Origin: Comamonas sp.
Lineage (GTDB): Bacteria; Pseudomonadota; Gammaproteobacteria; Burkholderiales; Burkholderiaceae_C
Direction: 5' to 3'
DNA: 64,000 nt
Assembly: GCA_028690035.1 (NCBI GenBank)
Contig: JAQVCA010000002.1
Location: 1 to 64,000, forward strand
Each line of letters begins with the position of its first letter. The first letter of the stretch is position 1. The notes under the pieces were generated by a model. It saw only the letters and a list, made by a program, of their open reading frames with translations, made no database searches and was not told the DNA's origin. The translations under genes were made by a program, and so were the position numbers. Positions 503-19,777 of the stretch are shown one piece after another.

Positions 503-880
503 ATGCCACCACCCCAGCGCCCTTCTGTATCTGCATCGTCCACGACCAAAGCCACAGAAAATCTGTGGTTGTGGCTCTTCATCATCGCCATCGTGGCCGT
601 GGTGGTCGCGCTGGGCACCGCCCGGTTTGTGACCCAGCGCGAGCAAGCCACCAACGAGCAGCTGCGCGAACAAGAGCGTGCCTTCGAGATCTACCGCGCC
701 AACACGCGCCCCAGCGCACCACCGCCACCACAAGCCAGCGCCCAGATGCAAGAGGCACGTCGTGTACGTGAAACTTTGCTGCAACACCCTGCCGTCACGC
801 CCGGGGTCGGCTTTGATACCCCCGGGGTGCAAGCCACGGGCATGGCCATCGTGGAGGCGCTGGACCGCTCGCGCCCCTAG
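503..880 (+). CDS. small single-pass membrane protein, unknown function
   Basis: The product is 125 residues with one clear transmembrane segment at about residues 21-44 (rich in I, V, A and L, with two Trp at its start). A charged, coiled-coil-like stretch full of Glu and Gln follows (about 48-66), then a proline run near residue 72 and a soluble tail. Codon use is GC-rich like the host genes, and a 252-codon antisense frame is better explained as a shadow. The gene ends 54 bp before the original msrA start, so the two may once have been co-transcribed. I recognise no family. No strong ribosome binding site is visible, so the start is uncertain. Confidence 0.55.
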   Translation: MPPPQRPSVSASSTTKATENLWLWLFIIAIVAVVVALGTARFVTQREQATNEQLREQERAFEIYRANTRPSAPPPPQASAQMQEARRVRETLLQHPAVTPGVGFDTPGVQATGMAIVEALDRSRP

Positions 881-934
881 GCACGCTGGCCACACGGTGG
901 CCCGGGTGTTGCAGCTTGCGGCATCATGTTGGGC

Positions 935-1015
935 ATGACTTCTACCGATACCCCCACCTCCTGCATGCACGCCGCCACCCTCTATTTGGGCGGTGGTTGT
1001 TTCTGGTGGTACTAG
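935..1015 (+). pseudogene. msrA: msrA 5' fragment stranded by the integrated element
   Basis: An ATG at 935 opens 26 codons that end in LYLGGGCFWWY and a TAG at 1013. The GGGCFW residues are the catalytic signature of peptide methionine sulfoxide reductase A. The same motif, followed by the rest of the enzyme, is found at 10325-10894 beyond the mobile element. The frame is in host-like GC-rich sequence up to about 1008 and then runs into the element, where it meets a stop after two codons. This is the original start of the host gene; a short peptide could still be made but cannot be a working enzyme. Confidence 0.88.
992..1008 (+). other. attL core, left junction of the element
   Basis: The 17 bases GGTGGTTGTTTCTGGTG recur with one mismatch (C to T) at 10349-10365. 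These are the codons for G-C-F-W of msrA. The exact crossover point inside the repeat cannot be fixed from one copy of the genome. Confidence 0.8.
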
Positions 1016-1326
1016 TCGGTAAGGTCTGGTTTCCGTTGCAAAAACAACAACTTGCATTTTTTCGCGTGTTTGAATGTTTGAAAGTGTTTGACTGTTGAAC
1101 CCCGCAACATGGGACTTGACCAGACTTGGAACCTGTGGCACGTGGTGGAAAAACCACTCAACAAGGGTAGTTGACTGGTTTCAGGTTCTGCGCTAGGAGT
1201 TCATAAGATCGCTTTAAACGGTCTACAAGCCGTTTTCTGTGCTCGGTGCTACCTGGGTATCAACCAACACGAAAAAATCGCTCTATGGGGCTTCTGTGAG
1301 GTTCTGAGAGTGCTTGGAATGTAGAT

Positions 1327-1353
1327 AAACCGCCTTCGGGCGGTTTTTTCTTT
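1327..1353 (+). terminator. terminator hairpin near the left end of the element
   Basis: The stem AAACCGCC/GGCGGTTT with a TTCG tetraloop (1327-1346) is followed on the plus strand by a T run. It would stop transcripts coming from the host side, including those from the old msrA promoter, before they enter the minus-strand genes. The same stem occurs at 2119-2136 facing the other way. Confidence 0.7.
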
Positions 1354-1370
1354 CTGTTTTCTTGTTCCAT

Positions 1371-1383
1371 AGTTCAAAGAACT
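1371..1383. promoter_or_regulatory. 13-bp operator-like palindrome, copy 1
   Basis: AGTTCAAAGAACT (AGTTC, 3-base spacer, GAACT) occurs exactly here, just past the stop codon of the 1388-2011 gene. Four further exact copies are at 2028, 2079, 8875 and 8925, all in this element. Confidence 0.6.
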
Positions 1384-1387
1384 CTAA

Positions 1388-2011
1388 TTAAATTTTAGGA
1401 ACTTTTCCCTTCTTTAATTCTTCTTTATACGGTTTGCTTTCAATTTCTAATTTTAATTCATTGTATCTTTTTTCAATCAAAAAAGGTTTTCTGTATTTGC
1501 TTTCTTCTTCTCTTCTGTATTCGTATTCCATAATTGACCAAAAAAATTTATATTCTTCAGTATTGGGTTCTTTGAACTCTGATCTATCTTCTTTAATCCC
1601 GTGTTCGGCTTTTATTATTTTCCAAACTGATCTTTCAAATTTTTTTCCGTCAAGTTTAAAAGATAAATTTTGAACCAATGTGAAGGTGATTTTATTTAAT
1701 TTATTCGCCTTGACTATTTCATTAATAAAATAAATTTTTGCTTGTCTTCTGTACCTTCTTAAAATTCCTCCTTTTTTCCCATTGTTCTTGGCATATAAAG
1801 ATTTCCATATTTCAAATGCTTTTGTGTCGTCTTTATCAATGTTTCCTCTTTCAAGAAAAAGTTTATTTTCTTCTGTAATTACCTCAATCCATTCTTCTTG
1901 TGGGGAAGGCATTTTTTTGCTTGGCTTGCTTACCCAGTAATTATTTATTTGTTTTTTATAATTTTCTATATCAATAAACTCTGTTATCTGGTCAGGTGTG
2001 TTGTAGTTCAT
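1388..2011 (-). CDS. unknown 207-residue charged protein of the element
   Basis: The product is very rich in Lys, Glu and Arg, with no signal peptide or membrane segment, and no family I recognise. A basic patch with GGILRRYRRQAK lies at about residues 80-92 and could touch nucleic acid. An AAAGGAT ribosome binding site precedes the ATG. The promoter has a consensus TTGACA -35 and a TATCTT -10, and is bracketed by two exact copies of the 13-bp palindrome described at 2028-2091; a third lies just past the stop codon and a 12-of-13 copy lies inside the gene at 1567-1578. That tight control suggests a regulatory or transfer-timing role, possibly self-regulation, but this is inference. Confidence 0.75.
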   Translation of the reverse strand: MNYNTPDQITEFIDIENYKKQINNYWVSKPSKKMPSPQEEWIEVITEENKLFLERGNIDKDDTKAFEIWKSLYAKNNGKKGGILRRYRRQAKIYFINEIVKANKLNKITFTLVQNLSFKLDGKKFERSVWKIIKAEHGIKEDRSEFKEPNTEEYKFFWSIMEYEYRREEESKYRKPFLIEKRYNELKLEIESKPYKEELKKGKVPKI

Positions 2012-2027
2012 TTTATTATCCTTTCAT

Positions 2028-2091
2028 AGTTCAAAGAACTCTAAATTAAGATAATAAAAAAATAAAAATTGTCAATAGAGTTCTTTGAACT
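2028..2091 (-). promoter_or_regulatory. promoter bracketed by two operator palindromes
   Basis: On the minus strand a TTGACA -35 (2070-2075) and a TATCTT -10 (2048-2053) are 16 bp apart. One AGTTC-N3-GAACT palindrome lies just upstream of the -35 (2079-2091) and another just downstream of the -10 (2028-2040). Their centres are 51 bp apart. This is the layout of a repressor-controlled promoter with two operators. Confidence 0.7.
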
Positions 2092-2105
2092 ATGAAAAAA
2101 TATTT

Positions 2106-2137
2106 TTGAAAACAAAAAAACCGCCTTCGGGCGGTTG
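2106..2137 (-). terminator. terminator of the mobilization operon
   Basis: On the minus strand the stem AACCGCC/GGCGGTT with a CGAA loop (2119-2136) is followed by a T run. It ends the operon that runs from mobC to the 106-residue gene, and it separates that operon from the palindrome-controlled promoter next to it. Confidence 0.75.
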
Positions 2138-2223
2138 AATTTATTCTTTAATATTAACTCTCTTTAAAGGGCTGGGCGCCCATTTCCCGCAAGCGGTTCA
2201 AATCAATAGAAATTAGTGAATGC

Positions 2224-2544
2224 TTACAATTTTGAACGCGGTTTGTCTTTTCCTTTGTTTGGTAATTCAATCTGCAATGTTTTGTTGAGTTGAAATTTTC
2301 TAAAATCATTCAAAGATTTTTCAATCTCATTGTCGAATTCTTCATATAATGGCTTGTGTCCATATTCGAAAAAATCAATACAAACTTTCATTTCGTAAAT
2401 TCCAGATATTACAAAATAGAATTTATTTTCAGGAAAATGCATTTTTCCTTTCATTCTTGATTTGTGGAAATTATTTTCTAGCCATTTAATAATATCTTTG
2501 CCATCTTGGCCTCTAAACTCTTTTGCTCTCCATTGTGAGTTCAT
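2224..2544 (-). CDS. unknown 106-residue protein, last gene of the mobilization operon
   Basis: The gene starts ten bases after the relaxase stop codon, with an AAAGGAAA ribosome binding site in that gap, so it is probably co-transcribed with the relaxase. The product mixes aromatic and charged residues; an FYFVISG-type hydrophobic strand lies near residue 45, and a basic tail with GKDKPRSK closes it. No domain is recognised. Its position suggests an accessory role in mobilization, but nothing in the sequence proves it. Confidence 0.65.
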   Translation of the reverse strand: MNSQWRAKEFRGQDGKDIIKWLENNFHKSRMKGKMHFPENKFYFVISGIYEMKVCIDFFEYGHKPLYEEFDNEIEKSLNDFRKFQLNKTLQIELPNKGKDKPRSKL

Positions 2545-2554
2545 ATAGTTTCCT

Positions 2555-3880
2555 TTATCTTGGTTTAAGTTTCATGCTCATAGAAACGCTGGCTTTGTTG
2601 TTTTGCTCATACATTTCAAAATACATTCTTCTTCTTTGTTCCATAAGCTCCATAAGCTTATAGAGTGCCCTGAATTTCTCTTCAAGTGTTTTGGCATTGG
2701 CTAAATCTGCAATTGCTGATTGAATGCTTGATTCAATACTTGCCAAACTTGAATTTGGACCAGTCTTTGAAGTTGAAAAACCTCTCTTTTCGTTCTCCTG
2801 ATTTTCAGTTCTAATATGAGAGGAAAGCTTGCTTGAAGTGGCTTTAATTCTTTTTGTAGTTGCTTCTGTTGGGGTTTTATTTTCTGCATGAATCTTGTCT
2901 AATGCTTTGACTAATGATCTGCATGAAATTCTCAAATTATTAAGTTTAACGTTATAGCTTTGATTTTTTGAATTTTTCCTTGGTTTGGCTTTGTAAGTTC
3001 TTTTTGGATTTGGGGTAAGGTATCTTTCTTTATTGAATTTCAGCTTCATTCCAACATTTCGCTGGAGTCGTGCAAAAGTTTTGTTCCTCTCGGTGTCTGT
3101 AAGTTTTTCGGAATTAAATTTTGTTTTTCTTAATAGCTCTGAATAGTTCGCGTCTAATGAAAATATTGGTCCGCTAAACTTAATAGACTTCTCTGTATCT
3201 GGGAATTTTAGAGATATGTAATTAACACCTTTGCGGGTGACTTCAATATCATTTTTCTCAAGTATTTTAATTAAATCTTCCCTGTCTTTCAAAACTCCTG
3301 TTTTAACAAGATCAACAAGCTTTTTTGAAAACCTTTCTTTTCTCTTACCGTTTTTTTCTCCTGCTGGAACCTTCTTGTCAAAAGCTGAAAATTCCACATG
3401 CAAGGGATTTTCATTCACTTGATCCCAACCATACTTATCATTCACCAGCGCCGTAAAATCTCTGACAAGTTCTCTTGAAAGCTTGCCTGGTGGGTGAATG
3501 TTAAATGCTTTGTTTGTCGTCAATTCCTTCTTCGGAATGACAATATGTAATTCAAAATTTCCTTCGTGCGTATGCTTTACAGCTAAAGAATTGACATTTT
3601 TGTCTGTTAAGCCTGGCGCCATTGTCTCCATAAAAGTTTTAAAAATATCTCTTAACTGCTTGTCTGTTGGCTTTTCATTATCCCTAAAGGCAATGACCAA
3701 TGAGGTATATTTAAATTTGCTTTTGTTGTTGTCAATAATATAGCTTGTTAAATCAATGTCACCTGAAAACAGTTCTGCTGGTGGATTTCGTTTCTTTCCG
3801 TTTGAATCGTTTTCTTGCAATAAGTAATTTATTGGACCTTTGGAGCTAGAAATTCCTGAGTCAAAGAATTTAACAATCAT
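2555..3880 (-). CDS. mobA: MobA-type relaxase
   Basis: The product is 441 residues. The first 30 residues (MIVKFFDSGISSSKGPINYL) and the phrase FKYTSLVIAF near residues 56-65 closely follow the ColE1-type mobilization relaxases, which nick oriT and carry the strand through the mating channel. The metal-binding region reads HTHEGNFELHIVIPKKEL (residues 103-120); ColE1 MobA has His...Glu-x-Asn here, while this protein has His103, Glu110 and His112. The C-terminal half is basic and helical, as in relaxases that bind DNA. The start overlaps the stop of the upstream 70-residue gene by 4 bp, so translation is probably coupled. Confidence 0.85.
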   Translation of the reverse strand: MIVKFFDSGISSSKGPINYLLQENDSNGKKRNPPAELFSGDIDLTSYIIDNNKSKFKYTSLVIAFRDNEKPTDKQLRDIFKTFMETMAPGLTDKNVNSLAVKHTHEGNFELHIVIPKKELTTNKAFNIHPPGKLSRELVRDFTALVNDKYGWDQVNENPLHVEFSAFDKKVPAGEKNGKRKERFSKKLVDLVKTGVLKDREDLIKILEKNDIEVTRKGVNYISLKFPDTEKSIKFSGPIFSLDANYSELLRKTKFNSEKLTDTERNKTFARLQRNVGMKLKFNKERYLTPNPKRTYKAKPRKNSKNQSYNVKLNNLRISCRSLVKALDKIHAENKTPTEATTKRIKATSSKLSSHIRTENQENEKRGFSTSKTGPNSSLASIESSIQSAIADLANAKTLEEKFRALYKLMELMEQRRRMYFEMYEQNNKASVSMSMKLKPR

Positions 3881-4089
3881 GAATTTCTCCCAATTAATTT
3901 CATGTATCTTTTAAACGCATTCTTATAGCTCTCAGTTCTTTTTACATAAACATGATGAGCTTCATCTTCGTTTAAAAATTTGAAAATAGTATGTGATTTA
4001 GTTTTCTTTGTAGTGTCGTAGTCGTATGTGGATAAATGAATTTTTATCCCGTAAAGTTTCTCCAAAAAATCCCAAGTGGCTTTTCTCAT
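3877..4089 (-). CDS. unknown 70-residue protein between mobC and mobA
   Basis: The small gene starts eight bases after the mobC stop and overlaps the relaxase start by 4 bp (ATGA), which is strong evidence for a real, co-translated gene. The product is basic with many Tyr and Lys, and has no membrane segment. It is of the size and position of accessory relaxosome proteins, but I recognise no family. Confidence 0.65.
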   Translation of the reverse strand: MRKATWDFLEKLYGIKIHLSTYDYDTTKKTKSHTIFKFLNEDEAHHVYVKRTESYKNAFKRYMKLIGRNS

Positions 4090-4096
4090 TTTCTTC

Positions 4097-4465
4097 TCAC
4101 TTGTAGTTTTTTTGAAGACGCTTTAACTCGTCAATATTGATTTTTAGTTCGTTGGTTAGTTCATTCCAAGAACTTTTTTCTGTGTTTAATCGTCTAGCAA
4201 TCTGGTTAATATTGGTCCCAATTTTTGACAAAGCATAAAGAATTTGGATCGTCTGACTGTTCGTTTGTTGGTCAGAAATTGACTTGCTGGAAAGCAAATT
4301 TTCTCTGCAAAATTTGGCTAAAGTCTTCTGTCCAGACCTCTTAAATTTGTCTTCAATCTTGCTTAATTCTTTTGAATTTAAGCGGATTGCAAGCGTAATA
4401 TTTCGAACTTCCTCGCCTATATCTCCACCTTGCCCGGCCTGTTTTTTTGGTCTTTTTATAGCCAT
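4097..4465 (-). CDS. mobC: MobC-like relaxosome accessory protein
   Basis: The product is 122 residues. The phrase YALSKIGTNINQIARRLN at about residues 78-95 is the hallmark of MobC-type mobilization proteins, which bind beside the nic site and help the relaxase open the strand. The N-terminus is basic (MAIKRPKKQAG) and is followed by a ribbon-helix-helix-like stretch with ITLAIRLNSKEL. AGGAG lies about ten bases before the ATG. It is the first gene of an operon with the 70-residue gene, the relaxase and the 106-residue gene. The upstream spacer holds two palindromes that may be oriT. Confidence 0.82.
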   Translation of the reverse strand: MAIKRPKKQAGQGGDIGEEVRNITLAIRLNSKELSKIEDKFKRSGQKTLAKFCRENLLSSKSISDQQTNSQTIQILYALSKIGTNINQIARRLNTEKSSWNELTNELKINIDELKRLQKNYK

Positions 4466-4511
4466 GTTTTTATTCTCCTAATTTATAAGCTGTGCCGTTA
4501 CTCTTAGGGGG

Positions 4512-4550
4512 TTTGGGTCTCCCAAAAATTTCAATCAGTTTACTGATTGA
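4512..4550. other. candidate origin of transfer (oriT)
   Basis: Two inverted repeats lie directly upstream of mobC: TTTGGG/CCCAAA around TCT (4512-4526), and a perfect 9-bp arm repeat TCAATCAGT/ACTGATTGA around TT (4531-4550). Palindromes next to a MobC/MobA operon are the usual form of an oriT. The nic site itself cannot be placed by eye. Confidence 0.45.
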
Positions 4551-4598
4551 GTGGTCTTGCTTTGATTTTGAATTTTTCCCTTTCTTAGATTAGCGCTT

Positions 4599-4627
4599 TT
4601 TTATTTTAAATCAATAGTGTTTGTCAA
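4599..4627 (-). promoter_or_regulatory. mobC: probable promoter of the mobilization operon
   Basis: On the minus strand a consensus TTGACA (4622-4627) is followed after 17 bp by a weak ATAAAA -10 (4599-4604). The transcript would run through the candidate oriT into mobC. Confidence 0.45.
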
Positions 4628-4633
4628 TTGCCA

Positions 4634-4662
4634 ATAAAAAAAGGACTTTAATAAAGCCCTTT
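4634..4662 (-). terminator. terminator after the four-repeat gene
   Basis: On the minus strand a stem GGGCTTT/AAAGTCC (4643-4659, one G-U pair) is followed by a run of seven T. It starts five bases after the stop codon. Confidence 0.7.
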
Positions 4663-4666
4663 TTTA

Positions 4667-5298
4667 TTAACTTCTCTTCCTCTTGATTGGAATCTTATAT
4701 GTGGATAAATAAGCTCTAAAACTTTTAAGTTTTCCATCATATTGAACAAGTTCTTTGAGTTCTTCCGCTGTGTATTGTTCTGGATCTTTTATGTTTTTTA
4801 TGGATTCAATTACATTACATTTATTGAAGACTTTTTTATAAGGTATGTTGTGAAAATTAAGTAATACTCGGAATGATTTTAGCGTTCCTTTATAGCCAAC
4901 TTTATCTTTTAGCTCCTTTGCTGTGAGTTGTTCAGTTTCTTTAATTTCATAAAGTTCTTTAATTTCTTTAGTTACTTTTTTCGTTGTTTCAGATTTCTTG
5001 ATTGGTATGTTGTATGTGCTTAAATATGCTCTGAAAGCGTTCATAGTGCCTTTGTAGCCCATAATCTCCTTCAATTCTTCTGCTGTATATAGTTCTGAAT
5101 CTTTGAAGTCAATTAGTTTTAATGTTGTCTCATTTCTTACATGAACTCTTTTGTAGAGGATGTTTAAGTCGGCTAAATATGTTCTAAGAGTTTTTTCTTT
5201 CCTTGAAAATTTATTATTTGAATAATTTCTTCAAAAGTTGTTTCTTCAATATTTTTAATTTCTTTTAATTTCTCTATTATTTCATTCCGTAAAGTCAT
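4667..5298 (-). pseudogene. four-repeat unknown protein with a -1 frameshift
   Basis: A strong AAAGGAG site precedes an ATG at 5296-5298. The frame reads about 35 good codons and then meets a stop soon after a run of six A (5191-5196 on the plus strand as T). Moving to the -1 frame gives a clean protein to the stop at 4667. The restored product of about 210 residues is four repeats of 45-50 residues. Each has a TAEELKE-like helix, then a GYKGTLKSFRAYL-like helix, and ends in IPIKK or IPYKK. The repeats look like small helical DNA-binding units, but I know no such family. A seventh A would repair the frame, so the shift may be a mutation, phase variation, a sequencing error or programmed slippage. 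No promoter is seen between it and the upstream pilin terminator. Confidence 0.7.
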
Positions 5299-5322
5299 AA
5301 TTAATTCTCCTTTGTTGTTTCA

Positions 5323-5350
5323 TAAAAAAACCACCTATGAGGTGGTTTTT
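5323..5350 (-). terminator. terminator after the pilin gene
   Basis: On the minus strand the stem AACCACCT/AGGTGGTT (5329-5347) with a 3-base loop is followed by a T run. It lies between the pilin stop and the four-repeat gene's ribosome binding site, so that gene would need read-through. Confidence 0.8.
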
Positions 5351-5366
5351 CTTTAATTGTGCTTGA

Positions 5367-5798
5367 TTATGGTGTTGTTGCTGCTGCTGTGCAATTCTTT
5401 GGAATATATTTAGCTGGAACATCTTCAGAAACTTCGCAAGCCCATGAACCATCTTCATCTCTTTCCCAAGAAATCTCCATATATGTTCCTGTAATCTTAA
5501 ATTCGCAAGTAATGCCTCCGTCATCCTGAGCATCAACTCGTATATCTGAACATGCACCAGGTTTTAAACCAATTTTTTCAGCGTCGTTCCACTCTGCAGC
5601 AGGTCTGTTTTCATTTAAAGCCAATTCAAAATTAGTTTTTCCTGAGGTAATTTCAGCTAAAGCAGCAGTAACGGTTGCTTTTGCCATGTAGTCCTGATAT
5701 GCTGGTAAAGCAACAGCAGACAAGATACCCACGATAGCCACGGTGATCATTAATTCAATTAAGGTAAAACCTTTTTGTAATTGTGTTTTTATTTTCAT
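5367..5798 (-). CDS. type IV pilin (major-pilin-like), cargo gene
   Basis: The chosen ATG (5796-5798) has AAGGA eight bases upstream and yields 143 residues. The start [20 protein letters not shown] is a textbook class III signal: a short basic leader, cleavage by prepilin peptidase between Gly10 and Phe11, Glu at mature position 5, and a hydrophobic helix to about residue 32. The soluble part contains four Cys, the last two near the C-terminus as in a pilin D-loop. No pilus assembly genes are nearby, so it would have to use the host's machinery. It has its own promoter and terminator. It could be a substitute major pilin or a minor pilin. Confidence 0.88.
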
Positions 5799-5878
5799 AA
5801 TATTTTCCTTTTTTGTTATTCTTGTTTTTGCAAGTAAATATTTTGTAATAAAAAAATTAGGATAAAGCAACAGGTTTT

Positions 5879-5906
5879 TAGATAAACGGTTTTTGCCCCT
5901 CGTCAA
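5879..5906 (-). promoter_or_regulatory. promoter of the pilin gene
   Basis: On the minus strand TTGACG (5901-5906) and TATCTA (5879-5884) are 16 bp apart, about 80 bases before the pilin ATG, leaving a long AT-rich leader. Confidence 0.5.
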
Positions 5907-6027
5907 TTTTTTTATTCATTACTCTTATTTAATCTATCTATTCTCTTTGTGAATTTATCTATTCTTATAAGATTTATGCAATAGAATAGTCTTTGATTGG
6001 TATTGATCGGTAATGGTACCTAATTGT

Positions 6028-6118
6028 CTTTTACACTATGGTCTATGCCCAAAGTGTAAAAGCCAATCCCTAGAAAGCGACTTTAAAAAAAATCAACTTT
6101 CTAGTTGCTTTTACACTT
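6028..6118. repeat. three CTTTTACACT repeats, two of which form a stem-loop
   Basis: Copies at 6028-6037 (plus), 6053-6062 (minus) and 6108-6117 (plus) share CTTTTACACT followed by a short WYGG-like extension. The second and third extend to a 12-bp inverted repeat (6052-6063 with 6107-6118), enclosing an inner 8-bp stem CTAGAAAG/CTTTCTAG (6070-6077 with 6097-6104). Confidence 0.65.
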
Positions 6119-6393
6119 CGGAGGTCCTTGCCCCTGTCGTGTCCTGACATTAATAAAGATTATTCAGGTCGTCGGTTCAGTGTCTTTATCACTTCCCAGC
6201 CCCGTCCGACTTTCGCCTTGGGTGTGTAGTTTGCTGTTCCATTGTCCTACACTTCATTTAATTTCTTAAACTACTTAGCTATTTTCTCTAAATTTATTGG
6301 TGGGACTTTGGTTGTCAGTTTTGTTTTTTCCCGCCTCAACATTCCAATAATGTTTAGTAGCTACCTGCTCCAATCGGGAAAATTAGTAAGATT

Positions 6394-6538
6394 CCGCAAC
6401 CCTACTAAAATCGACGCATAAAGCATTAAAAATTAAATTAGCAGGAAATTATTTTTTGTCAAGACAAAAGAAAAAGGCCTGAATTTCTTCAGGCCTTTTT
6501 TTCTACTTTATGCTTGAAGCGAATTAGTAGGGTTGCGG
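6394..6538. repeat. long-range inverted repeat downstream of the methyltransferase
   Basis: A perfect 15-bp arm CCGCAACCCTACTAA (6394-6408) has its inverse at 6524-6538. A second matched block GCATAAAG (6416-6423) has its inverse at 6506-6513. Between them lies only the terminator hairpin. It could be a MITE-like remnant or a protein or recombinase site. Confidence 0.55.
6474..6497 (-). terminator. bidirectional terminator after the restriction-modification operon
   Basis: A 10-bp perfect stem AAGGCCTGAA/TTCAGGCCTT with a 4-base loop has A/T runs on both sides. It lies about 65 bases past the methyltransferase stop. Confidence 0.85.
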
Positions 6539-6562
6539 TAAATCTATTATTGGAAATTATTT

Positions 6563-7678
6563 TTAATTTGTCAATACTTTTTTTAAATGTTTTCCAATAG
6601 CTTCTGCTAATTTCACTGGAACAGCATTTCCAATCTGTCTCATTGCTTCACCCCATGAACCTGTAATTACATAGTCTTTGGGGAAAGTTTGAATTAATTT
6701 ACCTTCGTAAACTGTGAAGTATCTTACTGTTCCGTCTTCATAGCGGATCATGTTCTCCCCACCTGGCACACCATGACCACCAGCCTTGATAGTCTTTGAA
6801 GGCTCGTCAATCTCGCTTCCTGTGTGTCCTGGGTAGGTTCTTGCACCATCTCTAAAGATATGATCCTTGATCTCGTGCTTCTCTGCTGGGTGTGGAACGT
6901 CCTTCAAACAATCTCTAACAGTCTGCCAAGCTTCTTCCTCTGGTGGAAAAATTCCATACTTGCTTTTTAGTGTGGCTCCTACTGTCTCGTTTCGTTGGTC
7001 TGGTAGGTTGTGCCTGCTCCAGTATTCTCCGGTTACGTGCTTATCCCACAAGAGCCGATCTTTTGAGTGTGTGGGTTTGGGGTAGGTCCAATCCTTCTCT
7101 AGATCGCTTCTAATGCCCACTATCACCACACGTTCCCGAGTCTGTGGAACACCATAGTCAGCAGCGTTTAGAAGCTTGTATTGGACGTTGTAGCGGGTTC
7201 CTATGTAGTTCCTCGGTGTGAGGTTCTTCAACCGTTCTAAGTGCTGTCCCCAATCTTCATCTTCTAAGATTTCACAATCTGGATATGAAAGCCTAAGAAT
7301 TATGTATGAAAAATATTCTGAAAATGTCTGTCTCAATAGTCCTTTGACATTTTCAAAAATAAAGGCTTTGGGCTGTAGTTTTTCAATTGCACGAATAGCA
7401 TAAGGAAACATATCCCTTTTGTCTTGGTGTGCTTTGTGTTTGCCACCCAATGAAAATGGTTGGCATGGTGGACCACCAGTAACAATGTCTATTTCAGAAA
7501 TTGAATTTAAATCAAATTCTGCAATATCACCTTCATAAACAATTTCTGGCTGAAAATTTAACCTGAGTGATTTGCAGGCGTCTTTGTTGAACTCAACAAA
7601 TGAAGAGTGTTCAAAACCTGACAGTTCTAATCCCTTGGCTAGACCGCCAGCGCCAGAAAAAATTTCAAGCGATTTCAT
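6563..7678 (-). CDS. DNA (cytosine-5) methyltransferase, Eco29kI type
   Basis: The product is 371 residues, with the full order of C5-methyltransferase motifs: SAM-binding FSGAGGLAKGLE (about 7-18), catalytic GGPPCQPFS with Cys72, ENV (109-111), QTRERVVIVG (about 175), and QIGNAVPVKLAEAIG at the C-terminus. It would protect host DNA from the adjacent endonuclease. The gene start overlaps the endonuclease stop by 4 bp, so the two are translationally coupled, endonuclease first. Because the partner resembles Eco29kI, the expected target is CCGCGG, but recognition cannot be read from the sequence. Confidence 0.93.
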   Translation of the reverse strand: MKSLEIFSGAGGLAKGLELSGFEHSSFVEFNKDACKSLRLNFQPEIVYEGDIAEFDLNSISEIDIVTGGPPCQPFSLGGKHKAHQDKRDMFPYAIRAIEKLQPKAFIFENVKGLLRQTFSEYFSYIILRLSYPDCEILEDEDWGQHLERLKNLTPRNYIGTRYNVQYKLLNAADYGVPQTRERVVIVGIRSDLEKDWTYPKPTHSKDRLLWDKHVTGEYWSRHNLPDQRNETVGATLKSKYGIFPPEEEAWQTVRDCLKDVPHPAEKHEIKDHIFRDGARTYPGHTGSEIDEPSKTIKAGGHGVPGGENMIRYEDGTVRYFTVYEGKLIQTFPKDYVITGSWGEAMRQIGNAVPVKLAEAIGKHLKKVLTN

Positions 7679-8319
7679 TTTTTCCCGAGTGTTTGCAGGT
7701 GGTTATTTATATTTGAAATTATAGATCGCTTTTCTTTTGGTGTCCCGTTCAATCTATCAGCCCAATTTCTGCCTGAATGTATTACGTCCCAATCTGATTT
7801 GGCTTGCTCGTATCTGCCAGAACCGGGATCATGGTTGCCGAATCCGTCTAAAGCTGAGTTCCAAAGTGGTTTGTTTATCTTGATTAATGAGGCTTCAATT
7901 GTTGAAATCATGTCTGAGCCTTCTTCCTCAAAAATTACAAACCTGCACATAAAGTGTTCAAGGTCTAAATCTGCGCCTGCTGTAATGCTTCTGCTGTGCT
8001 CTCTCAATCTGTTGTAAAGCTCATTAGATTGATTCCCTGAATTGTCAGAAGTCCGTGATTGTCTCCAACCTTTGGGAACTGCCTTTCCAACATAGATTGG
8101 ATAATCGTAAGACAATCTATTTAATTTGGCGTATGTCTCATAAAGCGGATTGTTTCCAGTGTAATAGATTGCATAAACACCAGTCCCTAAAAATCTTTCT
8201 GGTGGTGGCAGTGTATGAACTGGAGTTCCATTAAAAAACCTTACAGCGTCTTTCACAAGTTCTGTAAAAGCATCGTTTTTATAAACGTGTTTGCTTCTGT
8301 CAAATGGATTGAGTGGCAT
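7675..8319 (-). CDS. Eco29kI-like GIY-YIG restriction endonuclease
   Basis: The product is 214 residues from an ATG at 8317-8319 with GGAG seven bases upstream; an in-frame TTG four codons earlier is less likely. The sequence follows Eco29kI closely: FDRSKHVYKNDAF near the start, a GIY-like GVYAIYYTG, then YPIYVGKAVPKGWRQSR, a helix with LYNRLREHSRSI, and IEASLIKINKPLWN carrying the metal-binding Glu. GIY-YIG restriction enzymes of this group cut CCGCGG as dimers. It is the first gene of a two-gene operon with the methyltransferase. No separate controller (C) protein is visible. Confidence 0.9.
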   Translation of the reverse strand: MPLNPFDRSKHVYKNDAFTELVKDAVRFFNGTPVHTLPPPERFLGTGVYAIYYTGNNPLYETYAKLNRLSYDYPIYVGKAVPKGWRQSRTSDNSGNQSNELYNRLREHSRSITAGADLDLEHFMCRFVIFEEEGSDMISTIEASLIKINKPLWNSALDGFGNHDPGSGRYEQAKSDWDVIHSGRNWADRLNGTPKEKRSIISNINNHLQTLGKK

Positions 8320-8360
8320 TCTTTGCTCCAATGAATTTAATTCGAGGCTGTTTATTTAAG

Positions 8361-8376
8361 CAAATTCTTGAATTTG
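8361..8376. promoter_or_regulatory. palindrome upstream of the restriction-modification operon
   Basis: CAAATTC/GAATTTG around TT is a perfect 16-bp palindrome about 45 bases before the endonuclease ATG. With no C protein present, it is a candidate operator for operon control, but no promoter hexamers of good quality are seen around it. Confidence 0.4.
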
Positions 8377-8392
8377 ATTAAATAAATAGTCT

Positions 8393-8417
8393 AAACAGGT
8401 TGATAAACCTGTTTTTT
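8393..8417 (+). terminator. hairpin with a T run on the plus strand
   Basis: AAACAGGTT/AACCTGTTT (8393-8414) with a GATA loop is followed by T's. No plus-strand gene lies before it, so it may act on the minus strand or insulate the operon. Confidence 0.5.
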
Positions 8418-8427
8418 GAAGTTCGAA

Positions 8428-8453
8428 TGAAAAGAGCCAGAAACTGGCTCTTT
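8428..8453 (-). terminator. terminator after the H-NS-like gene
   Basis: A 10-bp stem AAAGAGCCAG/CTGGCTCTTT with a 3-base loop lies 17 bases past the stop codon, followed on the minus strand by a short T run. Confidence 0.7.
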
Positions 8454-8469
8454 AGTAGGACAGGGCGGT

Positions 8470-8811
8470 TTAAACCGTTTCTTTCTTGATTCGGTAATCC
8501 TCAATATTTCCACCTGCTTCAATAATTTCTTTAACCCATTTCGGTTTGGCTCCACGTCCTCCCGCCCATTCTTCACCATTGGGACCACGGAAAACAGGTT
8601 CTGCCTTCATCTTCTCAACCAAGCTTGTTTTTGCCTTGGTTGCCTTTTGTGGCTCTGAAAAATGGAATCCGCATTCTTCAGCAGTCAAGCCATAGGTTTT
8701 AATGTTTTTCACAACTTCAGCCAGAATTCCAGACTTCTTCTGCTGAATCAATTCTCTTGCTTGTTGTTGCAATGCTTCAATTTGCTTTTGAATTTCTTCA
8801 AGTGTGTTCAT
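8470..8811 (-). CDS. H-NS-family DNA-binding protein
   Basis: The product is 113 residues. The N-terminal helix (MNTLEEIQKQIEALQQQARE) is the oligomerization coiled coil typical of H-NS family proteins. YGLTAEECGF follows, and the C-terminus has PVFRGPNGEEWAGGRG, a form of the family's DNA-binding loop, which usually reads W-S-G-R-G-R-x-P. I chose the ATG at 8809-8811 with AAAAGG upstream, because the ATG at 8844 would sit almost on the transcription start. Such proteins on mobile elements silence AT-rich DNA and may hide this element from the host. Its promoter carries two of the element's 13-bp palindromes. Confidence 0.82.
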   Translation of the reverse strand: MNTLEEIQKQIEALQQQARELIQQKKSGILAEVVKNIKTYGLTAEECGFHFSEPQKATKAKTSLVEKMKAEPVFRGPNGEEWAGGRGAKPKWVKEIIEAGGNIEDYRIKKETV

Positions 8812-8848
8812 TTGGTTGCCTTTTCCGTTTTTGGGTTGAGCCATAAAA

Positions 8849-8937
8849 ATTATACCACAAAATTTGTTTTGTATAGTTCAAAGAACTGTATTGAAATTGG
8901 ATTGATTTTCTTTCTAAAAATTAGAGTTCTTTGAACT
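8849..8937 (-). promoter_or_regulatory. H-NS gene promoter with two operator palindromes
   Basis: On the minus strand a perfect TATAAT (8849-8854) lies 17 bp from a poor -35 (8872-8877). One AGTTC-N3-GAACT palindrome (8875-8887) overlaps the -35, and a second lies at 8925-8937, centres 50 bp apart. The outer one overlaps the recombinase stop codon. The spacing matches the pair at 2028-2091. Confidence 0.68.
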
Positions 8938-10192
8938 ATTGCTTGAAGGAAAAATAATGCTCTGCCGTGATCCGTGAGTTTGCATGTCCAATTTGTTTCA
9001 AAAGTTCTGCTTGTGTGAGGTTTGCCATTTGGGGTTCTGCAATCGTTCCTTTCAGTCTTTCAATGGCTCTTGGTGTGTTCAATCCCAAAAGCTGGCTCAA
9101 AAGAATACTGTTTGAAAGTCCAATTTTTTCAATCATTCTGGAAACATAGTCTTTTCTGAATGAATGCTGGTCAATTTCGTGTTTCCTAAATGGCTTCACA
9201 AATGAACCGTCAAACCCAAGAACTTTATATGTGAAAAGTCGTTCTTGGTCTGGCTTGATCAGTGATTTAACAAACCTCCACTGACGTTCATTTAGATAAA
9301 CAATCCGTTCAGTATTCTTTGATTGAATGTAAATGTTGGGTGTTGGTTTTTCGGAAATTTGGGATTTTTCCAAAAGAATAGCTTCTTGCCTTCTCAGTCC
9401 CAATTTGTACATGAGGTGAATGATTGCCCTAAATTCTGGGTTCCCATTGGCTTTGAAGACTTCAACAACCTTCCTGAGCTTTTCACTGGTGAACCTGAAA
9501 GCTTTCTTCTTAAACCTTTTTTCACCCATTGTAATCAAATCTTTGTCATACATTAAAAATGGGTTTGAGAGGTTTTTTAGTGTTCGGTCAAGGTGTCCAA
9601 TTTTTCGCCAAAAAACAGAAAGTTTGCTGATATAGTCAGAAATTGAAAGAGGTTTCAATCCTTTCTTTTTCATTGCAAGAATCAATTGATTCACATCGTC
9701 TGCTGTGATTTCCCTTGGTTTAAGGTCTGCCAGCTTCGTTTTTTCCCTTGGGCTGTAGATCATTGGGCTCAGTTTCCAATCTGTCTGAACTTCATGTTCA
9801 ATTGGAATTTGAATTGTATTTCTGAGCTTTGAAAGCAATGTGTCTCGTTGCCTCAATTTGTATTTGTCTTTTTCGCTTTCTGTGTTGTATTGCTCATATT
9901 TGGGCATTACATAGGTTTTAATGTATTCCTCCATATACTTAGAAAGCGGAGGTTCTGACATGTATTCTTCAATAATTCTTTTCGTTGCGTCTTCCGCCTC
10001 CAGCAGTGTTTTAACTGATTTCTGCCCAAGTTTGTTTTCACATGCGTTTAGGAATTCAATTGCTTGTTGGTAGTCCTTGAACGTCTTGTTCACCTTCAGC
10101 CCAAGCGTGGCTTTGTTGATCTGCACCTTGTAGTAGGTTCTTCCGTTCCGTTCCACTATGCTTAGGTTCTTCCTCTTGGGGTGGGCTGTCAT
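8936..10192 (-). CDS. int: tyrosine recombinase (integrase) of the element
   Basis: The product is 418 residues with the catalytic set of tyrosine recombinases: Arg in KLGLRRQE (267/268), His343-x-x-Arg346 in QHSFRKDYVSR, His403 in IGHANSRITAEHYF, and the nucleophile Tyr413. The N-terminal part resembles an arm-binding plus SAM-like core-binding domain. The gene begins about 155 bp inside the right attachment site, the usual place for an integrase, and reads away from it. It should catalyse site-specific insertion into msrA. No excisionase gene is evident nearby. GAGAAG precedes the ATG. Confidence 0.92.
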   Translation of the reverse strand: MTAHPKRKNLSIVERNGRTYYKVQINKATLGLKVNKTFKDYQQAIEFLNACENKLGQKSVKTLLEAEDATKRIIEEYMSEPPLSKYMEEYIKTYVMPKYEQYNTESEKDKYKLRQRDTLLSKLRNTIQIPIEHEVQTDWKLSPMIYSPREKTKLADLKPREITADDVNQLILAMKKKGLKPLSISDYISKLSVFWRKIGHLDRTLKNLSNPFLMYDKDLITMGEKRFKKKAFRFTSEKLRKVVEVFKANGNPEFRAIIHLMYKLGLRRQEAILLEKSQISEKPTPNIYIQSKNTERIVYLNERQWRFVKSLIKPDQERLFTYKVLGFDGSFVKPFRKHEIDQHSFRKDYVSRMIEKIGLSNSILLSQLLGLNTPRAIERLKGTIAEPQMANLTQAELLKQIGHANSRITAEHYFSFKQ

Positions 10193-10226
10193 GCTGGCTT
10201 CTCTGCTCTTGTCTGTGGTTAAAAAT

Positions 10227-10266
10227 GTTTGAAAAAACAGGCCACTTTTCCCCGTTTTTCAAACAC
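10227..10266. repeat. inverted TGTTTGAA words near the right end
   Basis: TGTTTGAA at 10227-10234 and its inverse TTCAAACA at 10259-10266 lie between the recombinase start and the new msrA start. They match the triple copies at 1067-1092 near the left end and could be arm-type sites. One more copy occurs inside the recombinase gene near 9109, so the word is not unique to the ends. Confidence 0.4.
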
Positions 10267-10324
10267 GAACAGAAGCATCCTATCCCATGAACCCCAGTGT
10301 TTTCAAGGCTTTGCGAGGTTTTTT

Positions 10325-10894
10325 ATGACTGAAACTATCGTGCTAGGTGGTGGTTGTTTTTGGTGCACGGAGGCCGTCTTTGGCCGCATTCGTGGCGTGT
10401 TGCAGGTGCGCAGCGGCTATGCCAATGGCAAGACCGCGCAGACCAGCTACTTGGAAGTGTGCCGGGGCAACACCGGCCACGCCGAGGTCGTTGAGGTGGT
10501 TTTTGACACACAAACCATTGACCTGCCTACGCTACTAGCTATATTTTTTGCCAGCCACGACCCCACAACCCTGAACCGCCAGGGCAACGACGTGGGCACG
10601 CAGTACCGCAGTGCGATCTACACCACCAGCGCCGAGCAGCTGGCCCAGGTGCAGGCTTTGGTGACGCAGCTGGAACGCAGTGGTCACTGGGGCGCGCCCA
10701 TCGTCACCGAGGTGGCGCCACTGACGGCCTTCTGCCCCGCCGAGCCTGAGCACGACCAGTACTTTGTCCGCAACCCGCACCAGGGCTATTGCGCGTGGGT
10801 GATTGCGCCCAAGGTGGAAAAAATCCAGCAGACTTTTTCCGCCTGGGTGCGCGCTGAGGCCGACCCAACTTCTCCCACACCGGATAGCTTGTGA
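10325..10894 (+). CDS. msrA: peptide methionine sulfoxide reductase A, rebuilt across attR
   Basis: MsrA reduces methionine-S-sulfoxide in oxidised proteins using thioredoxin. The product is 189 residues. The catalytic Cys11 is in GGGCFWCTEAVF; GNDVGTQYRSAIY and a C-terminal GYC (probable resolving Cys) follow. The ATG at 10325 has GAGG seven bases upstream. The first eight or nine codons (MTETIVLGG) come from the mobile element, and the rest is host DNA. The original host N-terminus at 935 is 11 residues longer. A weak promoter (TTCAAA, 17 bp, TATCCC) lies at about 10259-10287 inside the element. A fragment of the host repeat family (CTACTAGCTAT) lies in the middle of the gene. Confidence 0.93.
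   Translation: MTETIVLGGGCFWCTEAVFGRIRGVLQVRSGYANGKTAQTSYLEVCRGNTGHAEVVEVVFDTQTIDLPTLLAIFFASHDPTTLNRQGNDVGTQYRSAIYTTSAEQLAQVQALVTQLERSGHWGAPIVTEVAPLTAFCPAEPEHDQYFVRNPHQGYCAWVIAPKVEKIQQTFSAWVRAEADPTSPTPDSL
10349..10365 (+). other. attR core, right junction of the element
   Basis: GGTGGTTGTTTTTGGTG repeats the left junction (992-1008) with one mismatch, a silent TTC/TTT change in the Phe codon. Reading frame is preserved through the junction. Confidence 0.8.
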
Positions 10895-11388
10895 GCCAGC
10901 GCACCCTGCTCATCGTCTTTCACAGCCGCACGGGCGGTGCCGAGCACATGGCGCGCGCGGCCCAGGCCGGGGCGCTGCAAGAGGCAGGGGTCGATGTGCG
11001 ACTGCTGCCCGCAACGCAGGCGCAGGTGGGCGATGTGCTGGCCGCGCACGGCTACCTGTTTGCCTGCCCGGAAAATCTGGCCAGCATGAGTGGGCAAATG
11101 AAGGAATTTTTTGACCGCTGCTACTACCCGGTGCTGGGGCAGGTGGCGGCTCGCCCGTACGCCTGCATGGTGTGTGCGGGCAGTGATGGTACGGGCGCAG
11201 CGCGCCAGATTGCGCGCATTGCCACCGGCTGGCGCCTGCACGCGGTGGCAGAGCCGCTGATCGTCTGCACCCACGCGCAATCCCCTGAGGCGATTGCCGC
11301 TCCCAAACACCTGTCCTGCACTGAGCTGGCTGCCTGCCACAATCTGGGGCATGCCCTGGCCGCTGGGCTGGCGCTGGGTATTTTTTAG
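10891..11388 (+). CDS. flavodoxin-like NAD(P)H-dependent oxidoreductase
   Basis: The product is 165 residues. The GTG start overlaps the msrA stop (GTGA), showing co-translation. The opening VFHSRTGGAEHMARA looks like an FMN phosphate-binding loop after strand 1. FACPENLASMSGQMKEFFDR at about residues 57-76 matches the second flavin loop of flavodoxin-like reductases. A role beside a methionine sulfoxide reductase could be in oxidative stress, but the substrate is unknown. Confidence 0.75.
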   Translation: MSQRTLLIVFHSRTGGAEHMARAAQAGALQEAGVDVRLLPATQAQVGDVLAAHGYLFACPENLASMSGQMKEFFDRCYYPVLGQVAARPYACMVCAGSDGTGAARQIARIATGWRLHAVAEPLIVCTHAQSPEAIAAPKHLSCTELAACHNLGHALAAGLALGIF

Positions 11389-11394
11389 GTTCCC

Positions 11395-12303
11395 ATGCTT
11401 CCCTCTTTCTTCTTTGGCCCCCACGCCCGCCTGCTGGGTATGACCGTCCTGTGGGGCGCGTCGTGGCCTGCCGGGCGCATCGTGGCCCAGGCCATGCCGC
11501 CGCTGGCCGCTGCCAGCCTGCGCTTTGTGTTGGCACTGCTGGTACTGCTGCCGTGGATGTACCACAGTGGCGGCTTTGCACAACTTAAGAACTGGAGCAC
11601 GAAGCGCTGGATGGGTATGGCTTTAGGCGGTTTTGTTGGGGTATTTGGCTATGCCAGCCTGTTCCTCTCGGGGCTGCAGTACCTGCCGGCGGGCAAGGCG
11701 GCATTGCTGATCACCCTCAATCCGGTGGTCACGCTGCTGCTGGCGGTGTGGCTGTTCAAAGAACGGCTCAATGCCATCATCGGCCTGGGCATGGCCATGG
11801 CGTTTTGCGGCGCCATCATCGTGATTTCCCAAGGCAACCCCTTGCACATTTTGCAGGGGCAGCTGGGCTTGGGCGAGTGGCTGATTCTGGGTTGTGTGGC
11901 CTGTTGGGTGGGCTACACCTTGCTGGGACGCTGGGTGATGAATGGGGTGGATGCGCTCTCGGCCACGGCGGTGACGGCCAGTTTTGGCGCGCTGTTTTTG
12001 ATCGTGGCCAGCTTGCTGGTGGAAGGCACAGCCGGTGTGCAAGCTGCCCTGCACAGCGGCTGGAGCGCCTGGGGCGCGCTGCTGTTCTTGGCGTTTGGCG
12101 CCACCGCGTTGGCCTATGCCTGGTTTTTTGATGGCGTCAAAGTGCTGGGGGCTGGGGCGGCGGCTGGCTATATCACCCTGGTGCCGGTGGTGGGGGTGGC
12201 CATCTCTGCCCTGTTGCTGCACGAAACGCTGGATGCCAGCCTGCTCATCGGTGGTGGCATGGCGGTGCTGGGCACGGGCATCATGCAGCGCGGGCGGCGC
12301 TAA
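11395..12303 (+). CDS. EamA/DMT-family exporter
   Basis: The product is 302 residues with about ten hydrophobic helices in two EamA repeats. TVLWGASWPAGRIVAQAMPP at residues 15-34 and the GALFLAFGATALAYAWF-like second-half motif are typical of drug/metabolite transporters, which export amino acids or other small metabolites. It starts six bases after the flavodoxin-like gene and converges on the next gene with only 23 bases between the stops. The substrate cannot be told. Confidence 0.82.
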   Translation: MLPSFFFGPHARLLGMTVLWGASWPAGRIVAQAMPPLAAASLRFVLALLVLLPWMYHSGGFAQLKNWSTKRWMGMALGGFVGVFGYASLFLSGLQYLPAGKAALLITLNPVVTLLLAVWLFKERLNAIIGLGMAMAFCGAIIVISQGNPLHILQGQLGLGEWLILGCVACWVGYTLLGRWVMNGVDALSATAVTASFGALFLIVASLLVEGTAGVQAALHSGWSAWGALLFLAFGATALAYAWFFDGVKVLGAGAAAGYITLVPVVGVAISALLLHETLDASLLIGGGMAVLGTGIMQRGRR

Positions 12304-12326
12304 GAAGGCTCCAGCGCCACGAGCGG

Positions 12327-12692
12327 CTAGGCCTTTGCAGCCCTTGGGCATTTGCAGTGGATATAGCCCGCCACGGTGTAACCCAACACCGTGGTGCCCA
12401 CAGCCCCCAGGCCAAAGACCAGGGCAATCAAAAACCAGTCGGCTGGGCCGCCTGCATCGGTAAAGCCCGAGGACGACACCTTGGCCATCACCACCAGGGC
12501 CAGCGCACCGCCGAGCAATCCTATTGCTTGAGCACCTACCATGCGCCTAGCAACGATTGTGCGCTCTTTGAATAGTAAAAATAAGAAGGCCAAAGTGCCT
12601 CCAGCTATCAAAATAATGAGCAACCACAGCAGCGGTGTGCCCAGCATCTCTTGAAAGACGTACCAGAAAACCAGCGGATCGAGTTCTTTCAT
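12327..12692 (-). CDS. membrane protein, probably DUF5368, partner of SQR
   Basis: The product is 121 residues with about three transmembrane segments. The start MKELDPLVFWYVFQEMLGTP and an FLFLLFKER turn resemble a small uncharacterised family (DUF5368) that I recall near sulfide dehydrogenases. It is 36 bp downstream of the sulfide:quinone oxidoreductase on the same strand, so the two are probably one operon. It might anchor or deliver the enzyme to the membrane, which is inference. Confidence 0.6.
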   Translation of the reverse strand: MKELDPLVFWYVFQEMLGTPLLWLLIILIAGGTLAFLFLLFKERTIVARRMVGAQAIGLLGGALALVVMAKVSSSGFTDAGGPADWFLIALVFGLGAVGTTVLGYTVAGYIHCKCPRAAKA

Positions 12693-12728
12693 GACAGGTT
12701 TCCTTTTTGGGGTTCGGGGTTCTGGGAA

Positions 12729-14051: not shown

Positions 14052-14096
14052 GCTTGTCTCCTAGAGTAAGAAACGTCAATCAATTTACTTAAATAC

Positions 14097-14119
14097 AATT
14101 TATTTTTAAATAAATTATA
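14097..14119 (-). promoter_or_regulatory. sqr: SQR promoter with AT-rich operator palindrome
   Basis: A perfect palindrome AATTTATTT/AAATAAATT around TT (14097-14116) overlaps a TATAAT -10 on the minus strand (14114-14119). A repressor here would block transcription of sqr; sulfide genes are often controlled by ArsR-type sensors, but none is visible in the window. Confidence 0.45.
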
Positions 14120-14174
14120 GGGTGCTGACTGCCGTCCTTGCCAAGAAATACTCCAGGGTTTGCCCGCAGGGCTC

Positions 14175-15614: not shown

Positions 15615-15675
15615 CTTCTTTGCGTATTTTCTGGATACAGTGGGCAGGGTTGCTTGCCCCGCAGAGCACACAAAA

Positions 15676-15765
15676 TTTGCAAAATTTGCAAATTACCGAC
15701 TTGCAATTTACTCTGTTTTGCACGTTCAGTCTTCTATAAGAGCCTGCTTTTGCGTAAATTGCAAA
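15676..15765. promoter_or_regulatory. TTTGCAAA operator cluster between regulator and acnD
   Basis: Exact TTTGCAAA words lie at 15676-15683 and 15685-15692, with related TTGCAA at 15701-15706 and TTGCAAA at 15759-15765. The RamB-type regulators of actinobacteria bind a motif containing TTTGCAAA. The site lies in the divergent promoter region, so autoregulation and operon control are both possible. Confidence 0.6.
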
Positions 15766-15816
15766 TCCAGCGATCAACCCAGTGACTTTGCTGAGAAAGT
15801 GAAAGAAAGACCTGCC

Positions 15817-18444: not shown

Positions 18445-18512
18445 TGGATAAGGGTTTCAAGGCCAAAACTCCTTGAAACCCCCTATATCCCAGCGCTACC
18501 AGCTATCAAAAG
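18426..18512. repeat. interspersed hairpin repeat, copy at the acnD end
   Basis: The left arm CTAGCTGGCAACGCT includes the acnD stop codon. An inner inverted pair (GGTTTCAAGG/CCTTGAAACC) and the right arm AGCGCTACCAGCTATCAAAA follow, ending just before prpF's ribosome binding site. Confidence 0.7.
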
Positions 18513-18521
18513 AAGACAACC

Positions 18522-19715: not shown

Positions 19716-19777
19716 GTTTTCCCCTTCGTTTTTCTCGTTCCCCCCCGTTTCCACGTTTCATTCCAAGGAGCAACCGC

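Follow-up and report, generated by a model that had tools for sequence, protein, structure and literature searches.

The stretch analysed here (the window) comprises 64,000 nucleotides of Comamonas sp. contig JAQVCA010000002.1, in which an AT-rich element of about 9.34 kb interrupts the gene msrA and provides it with a new 5' end. Both the split and the element-supplied 5' end are real and were confirmed. We consider it highly probable that the element represents a family of integrative and mobilizable elements (IMEs) whose integrase recombines a lambda-like attachment site, attP, with the GCFW-C codons of msrA, the attP carrying a substitute front of the gene. This opinion starts from what can be read directly: the split of the gene and its rebuilding, uninterrupted sites in relatives, the recurrence of the arrangement, and the repeats and motifs at the element ends.

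At the left junction, read like the right one from the sequence, the host msrA begins with ATG 935, continues as MTSTDTPTSCMHAATLYLGGGCFW and then passes in frame into W, Y and TAG; the native 5' end from ATG to GGGCFW (935..1006, plus strand) is thus left stranded. At the right junction the element brings GAGG (10315-10318), ATG 10325 and the codons MTETIVLGG (10315..10351 as a whole, plus strand), and the reading continues as MTETIVLGGGCFWCTEAVF into a rebuilt msrA of 189 aa (10325..10894, plus strand) with a complete PMSR domain (Pfam E 2e-60). The earlier note had claimed the host fragment on the left, an element-borne ribosome binding site, ATG and MTETIVLGG ahead of the repeated codons on the right, and an intact msrA from 10325; all of this was borne out. 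The stretch common to both junctions is GGTGGTTGTTT[C/T]TGGTG, with one silent difference, and a second silent difference (GGC/GGT) lies one codon ahead of it. The GC content is 57.9% in 1-1008, 35.9% in 1009-10348 and 62.8% in 10349-20000, the shift in composition coinciding with the junctions.

In a comparison of 53 genus genomes, G039 has the best MsrA match apart from the window's own, and its msrA locus is uninterrupted. Window positions 566-1008 align to the region of G039 before msrA and on into the gene (66% identity over 454 columns); from 10343 onward the alignment is picked up again at 78% and then 82% identity. The MsrA start in G039, MSNTSATSPASATSTIYLGGGCFW, resembles the stranded left fragment more than it does the element-borne front (the cap). 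Relatives without the element that already start with MTETIV were named in the earlier note as evidence against its interpretation, and here the answer is divided: G028 (locus L019; the integrase of the clade described below is absent within 1.5 kb of its msrA) does start in this way (MTETIVLGGGCFW), while neither G039 nor the stranded piece does. The cap therefore resembles a start native to the genus, yet not the one of this host. The same split and rebuilding are found at both ends of six further elements, and because they repeat the pattern we regard the arrangement in the window as beyond chance. Empty sites could also be compared for two of these elements, in G048 and G041, whose stranded left pieces match the native msrA fronts of uninterrupted relatives (G044, G007 and G050) at 75-89% over about 420-440 columns.

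The earlier note proposed to look for the recombinase next to msrA in other genomes, and integrases related to that of the window turned up beside msrA, in divergent orientation, in nine genomes, of which five belong to the genus and four do not (the window, G048, G691, G564, G522, G027, G1201, G041 and G049). The related integrases number 13 in total (12 in the tree and that of G522, found by a profile match), 9 of which adjoin msrA. For 7 of the 9 msrA elements, the window included, the reading covers both ends; each of these rebuilds msrA in frame, and their lengths range from about 5.7 to 11.8 kb. The element of G048 came to light in the genus msrA search by a short second msrA match 9.36 kb before msrA; compared with the window, its integrase is 31% identical and its relaxase 39% over the aligned part. 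Aligned integrases are as low as 27% identical to that of the window.

A two-row integrase profile gave matches in 8 of 399 genomes of the order, the best besides the window being G691, G564 and G522, all divergent to msrA. The next match, G501, was middling, and msrA was absent from the flanks examined, as it was from those of the weak matches G480, G502 and G692; in G501 (locus L039) about 130 bp separate the sister integrase from a gene for tRNA-Val, which is a classical site. A pattern derived from RLFxYxVxGFxGS yielded 20 loci in genome_contigs (84,980 species), 14 of them without an integrase match and 6 with clade integrases: at msrA in Gallionella sp. STB_51 (G691), Acidovorax sp. CCYZU-2555 (G027; this record and the genus genome have identical msrA coordinates) and a Burkholderiaceae metagenome-assembled genome (G1201), and away from msrA in Limnohabitans sp. 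WS1 (G1199) and two Janthinobacterium. A nine-row profile gave 12 matches in 10 of the 53 genus genomes. Six were strong and came from five genomes (G000, G027, G041, G048 and two in G049), five of them adjoining msrA; the six weak ones (74-93 bits) were on a different contig from msrA or, in G020, 1.6 Mb off. The window integrase found only its own genome among 399 genomes of the family (1/399 at E <= 1e-10), a sample with five genomes of the genus that does not include the other four genus carriers, and in the class 6 of 369 genomes, i.e., its own and five weak ones without msrA in the flanks examined. A locus search with the integrase profile confirmed none of 99 pattern matches in genome_contigs and none of 437 in viral_contigs; a near-identical RLFxYxVxGFxGS-type pattern was absent from viral_contigs, and the window integrase had no match among plasmids. 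The G564 integrase had three weak matches among phages. Judging by these searches, the family appears so far to be one of Burkholderiales.

The left attachment core is GGTTGTTTCTGGTG (995..1008, plus strand) and the right one GGTTGTTTTTGGTG (10352..10365, plus strand), which encodes GCFW with two bases of the next codon; both were delimited by comparing the junctions. A comparison by eye of the left with the right copies, in seven elements and at a secondary site in Limnohabitans, leaves TGGTG as the sole identical block common to all ends. It consists of the W codon plus the two bases after it and directly follows the catalytic Cys-Phe codons; it varies as TGGGG in Gallionella and GGTG at the Limnohabitans site. 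We infer that the crossover occurs in this block (1004-1008 in the left core of the window), and an exchange there would make every codon through the catalytic Cys-Phe element-supplied.

Every cap end at msrA has an in-frame start and is free of stops, although the leaders differ: MTETIV in the window, G041 and G522, MNEINGL or MNEINNL in G048 and G027, MTEKTESIVL in G1201, MPNNQHSIAYL in G691, MENQQVKKLETI in G564 and MENNNLQDKKNLETI in G049. The Limnohabitans element sits in a NodI-like ABC gene, and the msrA of that genome lies elsewhere and is uninterrupted; its orphan cap starts with GTG, runs as (V)NEINNL into GGGCFWC and then onward outside any msrA. An orphan cap in a genome whose msrA is intact elsewhere indicates that the cap belongs to the element and not to the host. 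In a further genome, G008 (locus L089, with the core at reverse-strand position 2596), msrA has an element-type leader (MNKNNSLSQEAICLGG) and GTGAAAT repeats; insertion-sequence-like genes lie upstream, and the clade integrase is absent from the 11.7 kb contig. The leader is probably the scar of a lost element.

The ends look lambda-like, as far as repeats and predicted sites allow us to judge. A scan with the consensus of the integration host factor (IHF), WATCAANNNNTTR, gives in the window a left site AAACAACAACTTG (1042..1054, plus strand, 12/13) and a right site TTTCAAGGCTTTG (10301..10313, plus strand, 12/13) 11 bases 5' of the new ATG. A repeat search gives candidate arm-type repeats TGTTTGAA, TGTTTGAA and the variant TGTTTGAC on the left (1067..1092, plus strand) and TGTTTGAA at 10226-10233 with its reverse complement at 10258-10265 on the right. 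Four of the six copies of TGTTTGAA in the window element, and all five element copies of TGTGAAAT in G027, are within 300 bases of the ends. In 5 of 7 elements the observed count of the 8-mer shared by the ends was reached in 0-2 of 300 shuffles, and 0-14 of 300 internal pairs were as high. Of 12 cap ends, counting the G008 scar and the ArsC element described below, 10 have an IHF-like site (12 or 13 of 13, plus strand) no more than 60 bases from the core; letter shuffles average 0.6 with 0 of 1000 reaching ten, dinucleotide shuffles average 0.74 with 0 of 500 as high, and 45 of 909 internal 60-base tiles of the elements have such a site. Four of the cap-end sites are perfect (shuffle means 0.03 and 0.05, none as high). 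At the left ends, with either strand allowed, 7 of 8 have a site within 60 bases (shuffle mean 1.3, 0/500). No site of at least 12/13 was found in 25 native msrA fronts, i.e., the genus msrA loci that have no clade integrase closer than 1.5 kb, with the G008 scar excluded. The cap-end site falls inside the open reading frame (ORF) in frame 2 in G048, G027, G049, Limnohabitans, the G008 scar and the ArsC element, and in frame 0 in G691 and G564, while it precedes the ATG in the window and G041; a motif constant in the DNA while the peptide frame varies argues for a function of the DNA. An IHF-alpha-like protein of the host scores 116.3 bits, slightly under the family cut-off of 120.25.

The earlier note held that its interpretation would suffer if homologous recombinases integrated elsewhere. 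With 9 of 13 at msrA and 4 at other sites, msrA is the main but not the exclusive target. The second G049 element splits an ArsC-family gene (PF03960) at its catalytic-Cys codons: the left piece, MSKITTVYGIPN and a stop, matches three intact relatives at 98-99% identity over 314 bases, and the right end, MNENNNLTTVYGISNCDTVKK, restores the gene, the integrase being at the opposite end with respect to the gene that is rebuilt. An element of about 3 kb in J. psychrotolerans is flanked by the repeat TCAGGAAACAACCAT and lies at what looks like the start codon of a small gene; in the other Janthinobacterium one end was read, adjoining a similar lipoprotein-like gene. In the integrase tree (midpoint-rooted, with the interrupted integrase of G522 left out) the 12 rows form a clade with support 94/98, just below the 95 mark, 8 of them at msrA. 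The ArsC, Limnohabitans and Janthinobacterium rows fall among the msrA-bearing ones, and the target labels require four changes, as would fit msrA targeting having been gained once and lost three times.

In the scheme that we propose, the tyrosine integrase would recombine the attP core with the GCFW-C codons of msrA, with the crossover in TGGTG. Since integration at a 5' site cuts off the native front, attP would also carry a substitute: it would bring a ribosome binding site, a start codon and, in frame with the core, a leader compatible with MsrA. Arm-type repeats and predicted IHF sites would flank the core on both sides, with some elements having the cap-side site within their leader codons and others, such as that of the window, a short way 5' of the ATG. 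Excision would restore the native msrA. We presume integrase action with IHF binding, and conjugative mobilization would be provided in trans. MsrA expression likely depends on a putative promoter borne by the element. A bolder version, which we put forward only tentatively, is that attP doubles as the gene front, so that in many members an IHF bend site beside the core is translated as the new N-terminus of the split host enzyme and the layout of recombination sites dictates part of a host protein; Int and IHF would gate the expression of MsrA or, after retargeting of the integrase to other catalytic-Cys codons, of the ArsC-family protein, and the leaders may outlive the element, as in G008.

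Several observations weigh against the scheme. Some end pairs have a second identical block upstream of TGGTG, and the crossover is thus placed solely by what all pairs share. A search of 17.6 kb (a circular contig being assumed) failed to locate the left end of the msrA element in G049, and the G522 contig ends within the element, with the integrase frame interrupted. The end repeats are not significant in G564 and G1201 (2/7 elements), the G1201 and G522 cap ends have no IHF-like site, and the sites of the window itself are imperfect at 12/13; moreover, the ends are related by descent, and the counts overstate their independence. Four of the 13 integrases (G1199, the second G049 copy and two Janthinobacterium) are away from msrA, and the Pfam score of the window integrase, 23.5, is below the gathering score of 27.1. 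Since the integrase is transcribed away from msrA, the msrA promoter is expected in 10193-10324 or inside the integrase gene; the only sigma-70-like site in a consensus promoter scan of 10150-10380 is on the minus strand, and no site reads toward msrA.

Other explanations have to be considered in this connection. The cap may be the msrA 5' end captured from a former host, with the likeness to IHF sites reflecting an A-rich translation start rather than the design of attP. The native MTETIV of G028 fits this explanation, as does the general preference of translation for A-rich leaders, and the 12/13 site of the window is outside the leader codons. We nevertheless find it rather unlikely, considering the four perfect sites against shuffle means of 0.03-0.05, the 0 of 25 native fronts with even a 12/13 site, the recurrence of the DNA motif and not of the peptide (two elements have the site in frame 0, while elsewhere it is in frame 2 or ahead of the ATG), and the fact that 7 of 8 left ends, which are leader-less, also have an IHF-like site. 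It is also unlikely, slightly more so, that the element is a decayed and immobile island and msrA simply retains a foreign start; the G008 contig, with its element-like leader, insertion-sequence-like genes upstream and no clade integrase, may show such an end state, but the window has both att ends, and its genes for the integrase, the relaxase and the NikA/MobC-like protein are open frames. A short direct repeat and a second piece of msrA at the far end could also result from homologous recombination or a transposase insertion beside a duplicated msrA fragment; however, an identical core with a divergent integrase at nine msrA loci, for integrases down to 27% identical, together with the uninterrupted sites of relatives and the repeats and IHF-like sites at the ends, makes such an origin very improbable.

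By gene content the element is an integrative and mobilizable element, the assignment being based on matches of its predicted proteins: it has both an integrase and a relaxase. The predicted tyrosine recombinase (8936..10192, minus strand, divergent to the rebuilt msrA) has a PHROGs integrase match at 3.7e-20 and is single-copy in its genome; R268, H343, R346, H403 and Y413 are invariant across nine aligned integrases (the window and eight relatives), and these positions we take to be the catalytic motif of a tyrosine integrase. Also on the minus strand are genes for a MobA/VirD2-like relaxase (2555..3880; PF03432, 3.2e-8, 34.4 bits against a cut-off of 24.6) and a NikA/MobC-like mobilisation protein (4097..4465; Pfam). 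The nine element ORFs scanned with Pfam, a scan that left smaller ORFs such as 2224-2544 and 3877-4089 outside, include no mating-pair formation gene, and no phage structural gene was found among the window ORFs scanned. The other minus-strand genes encode a 207 aa protein without a Pfam match (1388..2011), an H-NS-like protein (8470..8844; Pfam) and, as cargo, a type IV pilin (5367..5798; PF00114 and PF07963, scanned as ORF 5367-5906), a C5-cytosine DNA methyltransferase (6563..7678) and an Eco29kI-type restriction endonuclease (7675..8331), the latter two identified by Pfam and a defence scan.

The cargo of the family is varied. Genes with a type IV prepilin motif occur in three elements (window 5367-5798, L043 11486-12991, L102 7905-9017) and H-NS-like genes in two (window 8470-8844 and L102 9902-10273, the latter slightly under the Pfam cut-off). 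The defence matches differ, being an Eco29kI-type restriction-modification system in the window (6563-8331), Gabija GajA/GajB in L032 (4966-8113), another type II methyltransferase and restriction enzyme in L043 (8352-10410) and PDC-S32 in L064 (1529-2377). The G564 msrA element (L045, about 1240-13073) is by its predicted genes a mosaic of an inovirus and a mobilizable element: a GPA-type replication protein, Zot/pI, a pIV secretin and DUF2523 stand alongside MobC and a MobA relaxase, the latter having only two partial matches, about 29% identical, in phage records. In the window, paired palindromic operator-like repeats (ATAGTTCAAAGAACTCTA), 31-32 nt apart, are present at 2017-2102, upstream of ORF 1388-2011, and at 8873-8939, between the H-NS-like and integrase genes, and also at 1369-1389; possibly a single regulator serves both regions.

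With this family, the protein genes that serve as 5'-end attachment sites come to include msrA, which is cut at the codons of its catalytic motif, and a gene of the ArsC family. The 13 related integrases with msrA and three other sites form a comparative set for the switching of integrase targets. If the leader is an IHF site, a recombination signal must also encode protein, and the control of a host oxidative-repair enzyme by a mobile element becomes testable.

SXT/R391 elements integrate in the 5' end of prfC and replace the gene front; SXT is a self-transmissible integrative and conjugative element of about 100 kb. The earlier note saw here the same strategy, a site-specific insertion in a conserved coding motif with replacement of the 5' end, and the junctions and the recurrence support this. 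The msrA element is alike in replacing the gene front, as is generally held for SXT, but has 9.3 kb, another target and no mating apparatus among the ORFs scanned. IMEs, the subject of two reviews (PMC5704250, PMC11389934), combine an integrase and a relaxase without mating-pair genes; the present element resembles them in having an integrase, a relaxase and, among the ORFs scanned, no mating-pair gene.

The statement of the earlier note that it knew no described family targeting msrA needs qualification. According to the available part of its description, prophage PhiM247 of Lactobacillus crispatus (42.5 kb, with a tyrosine integrase and an att site of 138-139 bp) has 96 nt of the msrA 5' end in its att site (PMC10763512), and S. 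pyogenes prophages are located between yesN and msrA, again as far as the available text goes (PMC8115907). Thus the msrA 5' end or its neighbourhood is used there as well; however, these are prophages of Firmicutes, and the accessible description of PhiM247 includes neither a relaxase nor an IHF-like leader. For Burkholderiales, an msrA-targeting family was absent from the titles and abstract openings searched, the coverage of which is partial, with subscription papers mostly outside. The strategy of 5'-end replacement is known, msrA has an att precedent in Lactobacillus, and no description of the present Burkholderiales family was found.

The islands and prophages in dusA are a further parallel; the available text on them states that they are inserted in the dusA 5' end, supply a new 5' coding end including beta-1, contain putative promoters, and on excision let the native end rejoin (PMC4482086). 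To that extent, both systems replace the 5' coding end of a target enzyme gene, while target and motif differ, the window element being in msrA and not in dusA. Relative to what is available on the dusA islands, the catalytic Cys codon in the msrA elements would be element-borne and the IHF-like site overlaps the cap. Beyond the initial finding, the points of most interest are the IHF-like site that overlaps the replacement front and the retargeting to another catalytic-Cys gene.

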